From an uncultured Bacteroidota bacterium (GTDB lineage Bacteria; Bacteroidota; Bacteroidia; Bacteroidales; F082), in NCBI GenBank assembly GCA_903891085.1, contig CAITDJ010000032.1, positions 1-64,000 on the forward strand: 64,000 bases of DNA. The letters run 5' to 3'. Made by a program: the position numbers and the translations under genes. Shown one piece after another: positions 35,083 to 52,121 of this stretch. How positions within the stretch are numbered: position 1 is the first letter of the stretch; every line of letters begins with the position of its first letter. Below the pieces are notes generated by a model. The model was not told the origin of the DNA. It saw nothing but the letters and a program-made list of their open reading frames with translations, and ran no database searches.

Positions 35083-35845
35083 GATTGAAATTTTTTACAA
35101 AATTAGTAATAATCTAATGTTTAGCTTACTGAGTCGAAGAAATTGGCTAAATTAATTTTGATGCACCTTGACTAAGAATGGATCAATTGAAATGTTGCAG
35201 TACATGGAGTTCGCAAATGTGAGTTTTCAACACCTTATTTTTCAATTCTTTCACCTTGTTTCTTGGAAATAAGTGGTACCCTGTGTAAAGTGATTATTAT
35301 ATAATGGCAGTATTAGTAACTGTTTAAATTTAGCTAAATGATAGATTTAAGAACAAGGAACAAGGATTTACGATTTGCGAAGTGGGTATAAACCCTTTTG
35401 ATTGGGATACTTCATAAATCAAAAATCGTTAATTAAGCGAAGCGATCTAACGAACGCAGTAAGTAATCTTTGTTCAATATTCAAAAGAACTAACAGTTTT
35501 AGAATTAAAATATGAATTTTAGACAGTCTCTTAAAAAATGCAATCAATATTCACCTTAATTGACTGACAATAAGGTAATAAGGTCAATGAATTGTATTTC
35601 TTTTTCTGCTAAGGTTTTTAGGAATGAATAGGTGCTGACTTAAACATCTTAAATCTTGAATATCACCATACTATGAACTTTTCCATCACAATAAAATAGA
35701 AATTTACCTCAATCTGTTGTTTAACCTACGCTATCGGATAAAAGTTATCATTGCGGATGTGTGAGATTTGATTTACTTTAGCTTAACAATCATTGAATTT
35801 GCAATTAATTGATATCCATCAAAATAGAACTATTCCACACAAATC
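35083..35845. other. 763-base intergenic region between divergent genes
   Basis: No gene was found. The region holds a seven-base-phased imperfect palindrome at 35351-35434, listed separately. Otherwise it is AT-rich sequence in which I see no promoter pair, RNA gene or broken reading frame. Confidence 0.6.
35351..35434. repeat. Heptad-phased inverted repeat, family 3 (GANNNNG)
   Basis: The left arm is a run of seven-base units (GAACAAG, GAACAAG, GATTTAC, GATTTGC) from 35351. Its segment 35363-35383 is complementary, with a few mismatches, to 35409-35428. The turn contains the small palindrome GGGTATAAACCC. It shares the seven-base period and fold-back layout of the repeats at 36995, 38961 and 51251, but not their sequence. 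Confidence 0.65.
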
Positions 35846-36357: not shown

Positions 36358-36990
36358 ATGAAAAAATCGATAGGAATATTCGTAGTACTTTGTTTATGTT
36401 TGAGTTGCATCAACACACCTTTGCAACAATCAGTTCCGGCCTATTATGCGGGCACCTATGTTTTTTCACAGTTCGAGTCGATGACACTGGGGGTTTGGCT
36501 GCGGGCCGATTCTTCCTTTATCATGGTAAAGAAGGCGGACAATGATTCGCTTTTTAGCGGGACGGCCGGAAAATGGAACAGAAAAGGAGATATTATTCAG
36601 TTAAATTCAGGAAATGAAGGCCGTTTGGTTGCAAAATATGCTGACGGTCAGTTAGAAGTAATGAATAATGAAGGAGAACCAATCAGCCGTGAATCGAAAT
36701 TCATGCTGGCAAAAGTTTCAGGTATTCTACCTGATGACCTCAGATTTTCGGCCAAAGCGAAACTCATTTCGGTGGGTGAAAATGGGTTGGCATTTCAGTT
36801 TTGTAATTTGGATTTGCCCTGGAAGGTTTCAGATGAGCATGCAGAAATAGTGCATTCGATGCACAAATCCACAGTTTCAGGTGATTATTTCGAATGGCTG
36901 ATTGTCATTGAACCGGATAATGGCAGCGGAAATAAAGTCAGGATCATCAGTATCAGTTCGCAAACTGCCTGGGATGATTGTGATCAATAA
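36358..36990 (+). CDS. Small lipoprotein of unknown function
   Basis: I do not recognise the family. The ATG at 36358 gives 210 residues; an in-frame TTG two codons upstream is less likely. The start KKSIGIFVVLCLCLSCIN is a clear lipoprotein signal with lipobox LSLC-like LCLSC. The first half of the mature protein (YYAGTYVFSQFESMTLGVWLRADSSF with GKWNRKGDIIQLNS) has the look of a small beta domain that shows a W/G pattern, and the second half is mixed. It follows the DUF1648 gene closely. Four bases after its stop the heptad repeat array begins. Confidence 0.6.
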   Translation: MKKSIGIFVVLCLCLSCINTPLQQSVPAYYAGTYVFSQFESMTLGVWLRADSSFIMVKKADNDSLFSGTAGKWNRKGDIIQLNSGNEGRLVAKYADGQLEVMNNEGEPISRESKFMLAKVSGILPDDLRFSAKAKLISVGENGLAFQFCNLDLPWKVSDEHAEIVHSMHKSTVSGDYFEWLIVIEPDNGSGNKVRIISISSQTAWDDCDQ

Positions 36991-36994
36991 AGGA

Positions 36995-37143
36995 AGGCTA
37001 AAGTATAAAGTAAGAAGTTTAAAGTATAAAGGCTAAAGTGAAAAGTATAAAGAATACAAAAGAAATGATTTTTCAAGGGACAGAACATATTATCAACGTT
37101 TCTTTAAACTTTTCACTTTCTACTTTAGCCTTTAGCCTTCTCT
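36995..37143. repeat. Heptad-phased inverted repeat, family 1, copy A
   Basis: The left arm is eight consecutive units of AGNNNAA (AGGCTAA, AGTATAA, AGTAAGA, AGTTTAA and so on) at 36995-37050. The right arm (37102-37143) is the complementary CTTTNNN series. Between them lies a unique core: ACAAAAGAAATGATTTTTC at 37056-37074 and a stretch ending TATCAACGTTTCTTTAAACT. The core recurs in the same orientation at 38987-39039. It can fold into a long hairpin directly after the lipoprotein stop codon. Confidence 0.88.
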
Positions 37144-37173
37144 CATAGCGAGTTAAATAATAAGGGAATATTC

Positions 37174-38958
37174 ATGAAAAACCTCCTCATAATAATCTTT
37201 GTTTTATTCATCAAGCTTTCCGCGGCGCAAAACCCGGCAGAAAGAGTCGTCATTTATATGCCGGTGCGTCATCTGTCAGGATCTGAACTATTACATTTAG
37301 AATATAATACCCAAACCACCTGCATGGTGCAGGTTCAGGAGGTTCCTAATGCACAGGCAATGGATTCCATCCCTGCGCACAGCCCGCAAAAAATACATAC
37401 GAAGTCCGCATTCGCCCAACGATGGAGTACAACCTTTGGTACTACCAACCATTATGATCTTATTTATGATCTTTTAGAGGAATACGATTTTGGTTATTAT
37501 ATGGTTGGATATGATGTAATATCGAACACGAATGCAAAAGGATGGAATATAAAAACAAATATAAACGGGAGTTTGCTTTATGATAAACAACTGATCTCTC
37601 CACAAGTAAAGATAGGATACGCAGTTTGTCAAGATAACATCGGTAATAAATACATTGCCGGGGTTGATTTTACTGATGTCAATACACCCTTTGTGGTAAA
37701 ATTGAATGCCTGTGGAGAGAAAGTCTGGTGTTCTTTATTAAAGCACTGGGATTTTCTTTGGGGCTCACCCATTGACATATTAATCAATGGCGATGGCAAC
37801 ATCGTAGTGTTAGCCCGTTTCGAAGACGGGGATGAGCAGATAAATCAGATATACTTACTGTGTTATAACCCGGATGGAGAGTTATTATGGGCTAAGCCGT
37901 ATGCATCCAAAACCGAACACCCTTTGATCTCTTTTGCTTATGGGACAAAATTATATCATTTCGGTGAGGATTATATCATCAGCGGATATTGTTATTACCC
38001 CTATCCTGATAATCCGAACCATGTTTGGCTACGACCACTGTTTATTGGCATCGACAGCCTGTTCAACGAAAAATGGATGCTTCCTTTTGGTGTAGCGGAT
38101 AGTATAGTAGGCGAGGCTTATTCAGCTATGCCGCTAAACGATTCGGTAATCATGGGAGTGGGGAGTAAATTTCGTGATTATTCCAATGGGAATATACGTA
38201 ACTCTTTACTCATGTTTTTCAACCATGAGGGTGAAAAACTGGGTTACACAAGAATTTGGGGTGATTCAATCATATCCGGCACCGTGGATAATACAATGGT
38301 GGAAATTGAAAGCATCAATGATTCATTATTTCTGGCTACCGTTGTCATAGGCCCTCTAGAAACCGGCAATCCGTTTGGGGAAGTAGTCTTTGATACTTCC
38401 GGCCATGTTTACTGTGCACAGTCCAGGCCTAATACGCGGGGCATGTCGGATATGATCAAAACTTTCGACGGAAAATATGTAATTGCTTGTGCTGTCAACG
38501 AAAATGATATGGACCATACAGATATCTTCCTCTATAAAATCAACGCTAATCTTGAGCAGGATACCTTGTACACACAGAATTTTGTATATGACAGCCTGTG
38601 CCCTAATCCCATCGAATCGGGCGATATTGATATGACAAATTGTACGCTTGTTCAGGTAAGCATTGATGAAGCGCCAACGCCTGAAGAATATTACAAAAGC
38701 TTAGATGCCATTCCCGTAAAGGCATACCCGAACCCGGCGGATGAATTTATCAAATTAGATTATAAGCATACGGAACATCATCAGAACATCAAACTTATTT
38801 GCTACGATATAACAGGCCAAACGTTACACACCGAAGACATTGTCACAGGGCAGCATGGCAGTAAAATAAATGTATCAGGCTGGGGCAGCGGTTTGTATAT
38901 GGCCGTGGTAACCAGTGGGGGAAGGATCGTGGGGAAGACGAAATTTATAGTTAAGTGA
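37174..38958 (+). CDS. Secreted protein with type IX secretion sorting domain
   Basis: The 594-residue protein has a signal peptide (KNLLIIIFVLFIKLSAAQ). The central part (about 80-490) consists of beta strands with repeated IDxxxxxxW / GDxIVVxAR-like turns (NGDGNIVVLARFED, YNPDGELLWAKPY), like the propeller-type proteins often found with T9SS tails; no catalytic motif was seen. The last 80 residues are a type A sorting domain (VKAYPNPADEFIKLDY, CYDITGQTLH, GSGLYMAVV, KTKFIVK). It should be delivered to the outer surface. It is bracketed by two same-orientation copies of the family 1 heptad repeat, with the downstream copy starting two bases after its stop. Confidence 0.78.
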   Translation: MKNLLIIIFVLFIKLSAAQNPAERVVIYMPVRHLSGSELLHLEYNTQTTCMVQVQEVPNAQAMDSIPAHSPQKIHTKSAFAQRWSTTFGTTNHYDLIYDLLEEYDFGYYMVGYDVISNTNAKGWNIKTNINGSLLYDKQLISPQVKIGYAVCQDNIGNKYIAGVDFTDVNTPFVVKLNACGEKVWCSLLKHWDFLWGSPIDILINGDGNIVVLARFEDGDEQINQIYLLCYNPDGELLWAKPYASKTEHPLISFAYGTKLYHFGEDYIISGYCYYPYPDNPNHVWLRPLFIGIDSLFNEKWMLPFGVADSIVGEAYSAMPLNDSVIMGVGSKFRDYSNGNIRNSLLMFFNHEGEKLGYTRIWGDSIISGTVDNTMVEIESINDSLFLATVVIGPLETGNPFGEVVFDTSGHVYCAQSRPNTRGMSDMIKTFDGKYVIACAVNENDMDHTDIFLYKINANLEQDTLYTQNFVYDSLCPNPIESGDIDMTNCTLVQVSIDEAPTPEEYYKSLDAIPVKAYPNPADEFIKLDYKHTEHHQNIKLICYDITGQTLHTEDIVTGQHGSKINVSGWGSGLYMAVVTSGGRIVGKTKFIVK

Positions 38959-38960
38959 AA

Positions 38961-39100
38961 AGGCTAAAGTATAAAGTATAAAGTTCACAAAAGAAATGAT
39001 TTTTCTGAAGACAAAACATTTTATCAACGTCTCTTTAAACTTTAGCCTTTAAACTTTATCCTTTGAACTTTTGCCTTTAACTTTATCCTTTAGCCTTCAT
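38961..39100. repeat. Heptad-phased inverted repeat, family 1, copy B
   Basis: The left arm has about three units (AGGCTAA, AGTATAA, AGTATAA). The core ACAAAAGAAATGATTTTTC (38987-39005) is identical to copy A. The right arm is longer, about nine units (CTTTAAA, CTTTAGC, CTTTAAA, CTTTATC ...) with one six-base slip near 39075-39080. Arm lengths therefore differ from copy A while the core is conserved. It begins two bases after the T9SS gene stop. Confidence 0.88.
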
Positions 39101-49618: not shown

Positions 49619-49763
49619 AAGCAGTTCGCCAACTCTCGACATCTCAAGCGTTTTATTTTTCCTACGCCGAACTCACACCAATCAATACTTAGTCGAGTGG
49701 TATACCCAAAAACCTCATAATCTTTCTCCTTTGCCAAATTGACAGATAATATGTAAAACACAC

Positions 49764-49791
49764 AACCAGCAACCAGTCCCCAGCAACCAGC
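49764..49791. repeat. Heptad run, family 2 (CCAG type), single arm
   Basis: Four exact-phase units, AACCAGC, AACCAGT, CCCCAGC, AACCAGC. The same unit, with the same phase, forms the right arm of the fold-back repeat at 51251-51335. No complementary GGTTGCTG arm was found beside it. Confidence 0.8.
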
Positions 49792-49835
49792 AACAATATT
49801 TCCACCCGCTCAAAAGGGGTTGTTAGAATTATTTC

Positions 49836-51245: not shown

Positions 51246-51250
51246 AAATT

Positions 51251-51335
51251 GTTGCTGGTTTCTGGTTTCTGGCTGCTTGTTTCCTGCGATTAGCAACCAG
51301 CGACCAGTAACCAGCTTCCAGCGACCAGTCTACAG
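51251..51335. repeat. Heptad-phased inverted repeat, family 2, between rbr and cdaA
   Basis: Left arm: about five units (GTTGCTG, GTTTCTG, GTTTCTG, GCTGCTT, GTTTCCT) from 51251. Right arm: six units (CAACCAG, CGACCAG, TAACCAG, CTTCCAG, CGACCAG, TCTACAG) from 51294 to 51335. The arms are complementary and can form a long imperfect hairpin. The left arm begins 6 bases after the rbr stop, and the last unit of the right arm contains the cdaA stop codon (51330-51332), so the repeat may act as a two-way terminator or transcript-end structure. Confidence 0.85.
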
Positions 51336-52121
51336 CATCTCTCTTTCGAGCAATAGTTTCAGGTCCGCGATATTATAGATTGTTCTGATATGGCCGTCAG
51401 TTGCCACACTGATTGAGCCACGTTCTTCAGAAATAACGATCACTACAGCATCGCTTTTTTCGGAAATACCCAATCCTGCCCTGTGACGCAGGCCAGGCCT
51501 TCCCGGTAAATCGAGTTTTTTTGTAACCGGCAAAATACAACCGGATGCCTTGATGCGATTGCGGGAAATGATCATGGCGCCATCATGCAGGGGAGAGTTT
51601 TTGAAAAAGATGTTTTCAATCAGTGCCTGACTTATCTCAGCATTGATTTCGACACCCGACTTTACATATTGAAAAAGTTCGTTTTGTCGGGTCAACACGA
51701 TCAGCGCACCTGTTTTTTTTGCTGACATTACCTCACAGGCTGCCAACACAGGTTCAAGATTCAATTTGATTTCCTCATTGAGCCTTATTCCCAGAAATGT
51801 CATTTTACTGAAAACTTTTCTTACAAATTTTGGCGTGCCCAGGGCAAGCAAAAATTGTCTGATTTCGGGTTGAAAGATGATGATTAAAACAATAAAACCT
51901 ACACTGGCAAAGGCTCCAAGAATTTCGCCAAGTAACTCCAGGTTAAAGGCGATGACAATCTTCCACACTAAAAAGATAGCAACGATGCTTAAAAAAATAT
52001 TGATGGCCACGGTGCCACGTAATAAATTGTATAAGCCGTTAAGCAGCATGGCGACTAGCAGAATATCTATGACATCTACAAGCCGGAACTGGATAAATAA
52101 GGAAGTGAAAAGTAAGATCAT
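51330..52121 (-). CDS. cdaA: Diadenylate cyclase CdaA (c-di-AMP synthase)
   Basis: Makes cyclic di-AMP from two ATP at the inner membrane, a signal for osmotic and cell-wall balance. Three N-terminal transmembrane helices (about 8-32, 37-54, 66-84) are followed by the DAC domain with the catalytic DGA motif at 180-182 (PLHDGAMIIS) and RHR at 212-214 (GLRHRAGLG). At 263 residues it has the usual CdaA size. It lies 36 bases downstream of folP on the same strand, an order common in this phylum. Its stop codon is embedded in the heptad repeat. Confidence 0.94.
   Translation of the reverse strand: MILLFTSLFIQFRLVDVIDILLVAMLLNGLYNLLRGTVAINIFLSIVAIFLVWKIVIAFNLELLGEILGAFASVGFIVLIIIFQPEIRQFLLALGTPKFVRKVFSKMTFLGIRLNEEIKLNLEPVLAACEVMSAKKTGALIVLTRQNELFQYVKSGVEINAEISQALIENIFFKNSPLHDGAMIISRNRIKASGCILPVTKKLDLPGRPGLRHRAGLGISEKSDAVVIVISEERGSISVATDGHIRTIYNIADLKLLLEREML

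Follow-up and report, generated by a model that had tools for sequence, protein, structure and literature searches.

Inverted arrays of seven-base units in Bacteroidota spacers and their association with IVP (PF05635) genes

Two fold-back repeats, designated A and B, were found in the 64,000-nucleotide stretch of DNA from an uncultured Bacteroidota bacterium that was analysed here (the window). We consider it probable (roughly 0.6) that both are gene-less, REPIN-like representatives of a spacer-element class that consists of inverted short-unit arrays and in its full form frames an IVP gene, encoding a protein of the 23S_rRNA_IVP family (PF05635). In this class two inverted arrays surround a short core, and the unit is mostly 7 and sometimes 8 bp in length. 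The class is widespread and apparently undescribed; no description of heptad-armed IVP elements was found in the open-access literature, and the association with IVP genes was missed by the first-pass annotation of this DNA. The architecture, the association with IVP genes, the matching of the arms, allelic solo and IVP-bearing forms at one site, empty sites, and changes of units and words between congeners were all observed directly in the genomes compared.

Copies A and B and the seven-base arrays of the genome

Direct reading of A and B bore out the earlier description of arms in heptad phase around a common core. The relevant features of the window are as follows.

35343-35384, no strand assigned: heptad array GAACAAG beside an inverted repeat
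36994-37053, plus strand: left arm of copy A, about 8 heptads AAAGNNN (AAGGCTAAAGTATAAAGTAAGAAG...AAAG), directly after the stop codon of a 212-aa gene
37056-37101, plus strand: core of copy A (core 1), containing the 19-mer ACAAAAGAAATGATTTTTC
37102-37140, minus strand: right arm of copy A, heptads CTTTNNN, that is, AAAGNNN on the minus strand
37174-38958, plus strand: 594-aa gene between A and B with a Por_Secre_tail (secretion-tail) domain; the A-gene-B insertion is absent in three congeners
38959-38984, plus strand: left arm of copy B, about 3 heptads, directly downstream of the 594-aa gene's stop codon
38987-39032, plus strand: core of copy B (core 1)
39033-39098, minus strand: right arm of copy B, about 9 heptads with one six-base slip
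49763-49796, no strand assigned: heptad array CAACCAG
51250-51340, no strand assigned: fold-back of CTGGNNN and CCAGNNN heptads that fills the space between two convergent stop codons, resembling A and B in kind and differing in word

Copy A thus extends overall from 36994 to 37140 and copy B from 38959 to 39098, with the identical 19-mer at 37056-37074 and 38987-39005, respectively. The preceding stop codons end at 36990 and 38958, with the first AGNNNAA unit starting 4 and 2 bases past them, respectively, as had been reported. On recount the earlier unit numbers also proved about right, with approximately 8 left and 6 right units in A and 3 and 9 in B; a third copy, on contig C17, has about 13 and 5. 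A four-unit pattern, AAAGNNNAAAGNNNAAAGNNNAAAG, had 69 matches in the genome, compared to 9 for the reversed control pattern, and RNA folding gave z-scores against dinucleotide shuffles of -6.0 for A, -4.1 for B and -4.5 for the C17 copy. Both results place the arms of A and B beyond chance. A period of 7 was detected in seven repetitive stretches of the window, and no period outside the multiples of 7 accounted for more than one. Neither A nor B has an intrinsic terminator (a G+C-rich stem followed by a T run), an Rfam scan returned no family at the gathering threshold, and a similarity search of plasmid DNA gave no match. Integron attC sites were considered by eye and dropped, since the R'/R'' boxes were inconsistent across A, B and the C17 copy.

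The genome was sampled in 40 stretches (about 0.8 Mb), and a census of arrays took in 863 kb of it, about a fifth of the whole. The census yielded 42 non-coding arrays of period 7, compared to no more than 8 for any period outside the multiples of 7. The word families are many and include AAAGNNN, TTGACAA, CTGGTTN/CCAGNAA, CTTCCCA, CAGTCTT and GTGAATA, among others. On a gene map of crude ORFs, 55% of the 42 arrays are at most 5 nt away from a stop codon, compared to 3% under random placement in spacers. Single arrays that do not fold are also common, and most arrays in the genome have no adjoining IVP gene.

Two further observations were made on the arrays. On contig C154, positions 108-2528 of locus L120 hold an ORF resembling a restriction-enzyme R subunit that contains heptad fold-backs in frame, translated as NGKLKIDNEGNSQLSTVNSQL and a similar stretch; just one relative of this ORF, 35% identical, was found in 24 genomes. 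A G+C-rich unit, CCCGTCTTGCAGCCGGGCAGGC, occurs in the window's genome (G000) and in the congeners G001 and G002, where it lies in or beside AAAG arrays (L048 at about 1160-1240, L039 at about 1200, and the spacers of L254 and L399); in L048 it is in tandem at a period of 21 bp (3 x 7).

One further copy of core 1 was present in the genome, that on C17, and none in the 30 relatives searched. All three copies adjoin members of one duplicated family of 594-aa genes; C17 has a nearly full paralogue, 83% identical, and an N-terminal piece of another. The three cores are 86-91% identical, yet the arms differ both in the number and in the sequence of their units, which indicates that the arms turn over faster than the core. 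In the congeners G001, G002 and G003 the 212-aa gene and glutamate dehydrogenase bound a locus that lacks both the 594-aa gene and AAAG heptads, and we infer that A, the gene and B arrived as a block in this lineage. The identity of core 1 in A and B is best attributed to duplication of the spacer along with the 594-aa gene. Judged from these sequences, core 1 is not an independently dispersed element. No recognizable remnant of an IVP gene was seen in core 1. The element had been conceived earlier as a fixed core with variable arms; gain and loss of arm units stands, and independent dispersal of core 1 does not. The concern raised at the same time, that the core might have no other copies or that A and B might be a mere duplication, applies in half, in that a further copy exists and all three lie beside one duplicated gene.

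A second core was found by masking the arrays and comparing the sequence that remained. Core 2, 53-57 nt in length (about 55), lies in AAAG-armed fold-backs on C8 and C59 of this genome, at three loci in G002 and at one in G003. The copies on C59 and on contig C6 of G002 are probably one locus, because their flanking sequence matches too, and the remaining copies are taken as dispersed because only the core matches. The C8 element is absent in G001-G003. Inspection by eye gave one imperfect candidate for a target-site duplication at C8, in alignments whose 70-90% identity represents too high a divergence for such a search. Alignment of the two cores revealed a weak resemblance, for which homology is not claimed. 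The wider idea of a conserved core within AAAG arms therefore holds for the core 2 family, which recurs at dispersed loci in three congeners.

IVP genes framed by matched arrays

In several cases in the genome, inverted pairs of arrays 350-450 bp apart enclose a gene of about 120 aa. The four enclosed proteins that were examined all belong to 23S_rRNA_IVP, scoring 80-102 bits against a Pfam cut-off of 33.8, and a solved structural relative was identified in 2GSC (E 3e-6). The genome holds 15 IVP genes, of which 14 exceed the PF05635 cut-off, and flanks of 220 nt contained an array of 7- or 8-bp units for 9 of the 15. IVP genes were present in 60 of 60 genomes of the family. The IVP elements examined, like A and B, lie in spacers between protein genes and not inside a 23S rRNA gene. 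Some have units of 9 or 10 bp. No transposase was found.

The association was measured in several ways. For 110 IVP genes fetched, period 7 was detected at 33 of 106 5' flanks and 37 of 105 3' flanks (controls 31/616 and 34/615), and period 8 at 18 and 21 flanks, respectively (controls 6/616 and 5/615). With a somewhat looser array call, 7- or 8-bp arrays were seen in 114 of 204 flanks adjacent to IVP genes, compared to 9 of 204 flanks located 450-670 nt away at the same loci (Fisher 8e-33). At least one side bore an array in 79 of 104 IVP genes, as against 33 of 279 small control genes from the same genomes (Fisher 4e-33); for arrays on both sides the counts were 39/104 and 7/279 (Fisher 2e-18).

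The two arms of one element have the same word, mostly inverted, a match attained in none of 5000 permutations for period 7 (n=25) or period 8 (n=13). Between elements the words differ widely, and their similarity climbs with the identity of the IVP proteins (Mantel r 0.22, 0/5000). At L141, L148 and L127 the arms of the IVP gene have the same word in the same orientation and are not inverted. Among relatives, AAAG-type arms were found on the IVP genes of L197 (AAAGTTT) and L173 (AAAGTTG), and a related word, TTGAAAG, on that of L129. Arms with AAAGTAT or AAAGGCT, the vocabulary of A and B, occur on none of the genome's 15 IVP genes, so the link between fold-backs of the A and B type and IVP rests on these relatives and on the shared architecture.

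The arrays extend beyond the family. When one IVP protein was used to scan species genomes, 79 named loci were obtained, mostly from Bacteroidota, and a scan of viral sequences returned 11. Period 7 was present in 52 of 176 flanks of the scan loci, period 8 in 10, and each other period that is not a multiple of these in 3 or fewer. Loci with arrays include metagenome-assembled genomes labelled as Clostridia (L348, L352), Betaproteobacteria (L328), Patescibacteria (L292) and Atribacterota (L303), labels which can be wrong. Array-bearing IVP loci also occur in viral contigs. Four of these (L356, L357, L358 and L365) have very similar IVP genes with nearly the same upstream array, GAATTGG, which suggests carriage by phages.

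Orthologous sites, rival explanations and a proposed mechanism

Comparison of G000 with its congeners revealed gene-bearing, solo and empty states of the same sites. In the spacer between the hydantoinase and ureidopropionase genes of G000, an IVP gene lies between CTGGTTN arms; in that of G001 (94% identical protein), a fold-back with this word is present and the IVP gene is missing. The IVP element is absent from the orthologous spacers of L134 (G001 and G003), L127 (G001-G003) and L131 (G001 and G003); at the L131 site G002 has a fold-back with other words and no IVP gene. At the L126 and L135 sites a congener has an IVP gene too, with different arms. The L135 element has 10-bp units in G000 and units of about 9 bp in its G001 ortholog, L384, so that unit length can change; of the other L135 orthologs, L376 (G002) has only a remnant of an array, and no intact gene was detected in L367 (G003).

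Among congeners, the eleven AAAG arrays that were compared differ in presence or absence, in number of units and in word. For example, the G000 array at L040 is one unit shorter than that of G003, at L046 the word is AAAGTAT in G000 and AAAATGC in G003, and at L039 it is AAAG in G000 and G002 and CTTCCGA in G001. Differences by whole units, by presence and by word between orthologous spacers agree with the growth and loss of units that the first-pass annotation had proposed; it should be noted that presence or absence between congeners cannot alone separate gain from loss. Examination by eye of the L134, L127 and L131 type of site and of the AAAG sites, at 70-90% identity, established no target-site duplication.

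The arrays could instead be neutral products of slippage during replication and of hairpin-templated correction of the arms, in the dispensable DNA that follows stop codons, the IVP genes being independent passengers that enter such hairpins, or persist best within them, and neither make nor move them. Changes of unit number and turnover of words at fixed sites resemble local growth, many arrays are without an IVP gene, and stop codons, where the arrays crowd, are the places at which insertions harm least. However, neutral slippage does not lead one to expect a strong association with IVP in several phyla, nor words that become more similar as the IVP proteins do, nor a unit length that is near-exclusively 7 and then 8; we regard this explanation as unlikely. 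It is improbable, in our estimation, that the hairpins are RNA elements of benefit to the host at the 3' ends of genes, serving in termination, RNase III processing or stabilisation of mRNA between genes. The strong stems (z of -4 to -6) and the position of 55% of arrays no more than 5 nt from a stop codon would fit such elements, but A and B lack a terminator-like T run, no Rfam family was matched at threshold, the arrays are polymorphic for presence among congeners, single arrays that do not fold are also common, and the IVP association is left unexplained.

The least probable explanation is that the two copies reflect nothing more than duplication of a low-complexity spacer belonging to the 594-aa gene family, without an underlying element. 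That all three copies of core 1 adjoin this gene family is as this explanation predicts. Arms in this phase, however, make up a class that extends across the genome and the family, those of A and B have been rebuilt while the core was kept, and AAAG fold-backs exist away from the 594-aa gene, with another recurrent core at dispersed loci.

Under the preferred reading, which treats A and B as gene-less forms within an element class whose full form frames an IVP gene, a mechanism may be proposed. The IVP protein, a pentamer in the solved relative, may bind the repeated arm word as DNA or as an RNA hairpin, and by this binding would maintain or spread its own element and the solo ones, as RAYT may do for REPINs. 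Whole units would be gained or lost by slippage, and one arm would serve as template for the other in the folded stem (template switching). Unit slippage and copying between arms via a folded stem are established mutational mechanisms, and together they could explain why the arms keep the same word while their lengths differ. Since the unit length is conserved while the words vary, a protein or process may be at work that measures out about seven nucleotides and recognises the word. No catalytic activity is known for IVP. We suggest only tentatively that the class represents a mobile family without transposase, distributed over several phyla, in which an Avd-like four-helix-bundle protein would recognise and propagate the 7-bp words of its own lineage and fold-backs such as A and B would be satellites.

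Comparison with known systems

Seven-base units in spacers are known as the STRR of cyanobacteria. Heptamer direct repeats, TAACTGA, have been described in Beggiatoaceae (PMC4679880). The arrays described here share with both the seven-base spacer unit. In contrast to those direct repeats of fixed word, they are often inverted pairs, are degenerate, have many words and are tied to IVP genes. When compared to MITEs, core 2 occurs at dispersed loci, with an empty C8 site in three congeners; core 1 is seen only beside its gene.

In the REPIN/RAYT system a gene is framed by short inverted repeats, of which many gene-less copies are found elsewhere in the genome (PMC3116915, PMC2817692). A framed gene and gene-less copies are also seen here. 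However, the framed gene encodes a PF05635 four-helix bundle and not a RAYT (Y1/HuH tyrosine transposase), tandem arrays take the place of single REPs, and elements of the same genome have different words. If IVP does spread these elements, it would do so without any known transposase fold. Homologues of IVP are pentameric four-helix bundles (2GSC; PMC4990558), and Avd of the diversity-generating retroelements is a structurally homologous four-helix-bundle protein (PMC10053308). Unlike those retroelements, the loci in an unsystematic look had no noticeable reverse transcriptase, template or variable repeat.

The open-access papers that we found assign PF05635 no function in the time since its discovery in insertions of 23S rRNA. 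For these proteins, which are common in Bacteroidota, the matched seven-base arrays are a concrete candidate substrate, and the link to IVP suggests where the heptamer repeats seen in these genomes are likely to have originated. The intervening sequences (IVS) of 23S rRNA genes, which are described as selfish, likewise have a PF05635 (S23p) frame inside an inverted-repeat stem loop. In the IVS of Coxiella burnetii the start of S23p is preceded by tandem heptamers (GACAGAT), two or three in number depending on the strain (PMC4990558); these fit a reading that connects IVP with heptads, and the IVP link may in turn explain them. The elements described here differ from IVS in lying in protein-gene spacers after stop codons and not in rRNA genes, and in having long heptad-array arms, words specific to each element, and gene-less fold-backs. 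By analogy, they look like an intergenic relative of the selfish 23S rRNA gene insertions.
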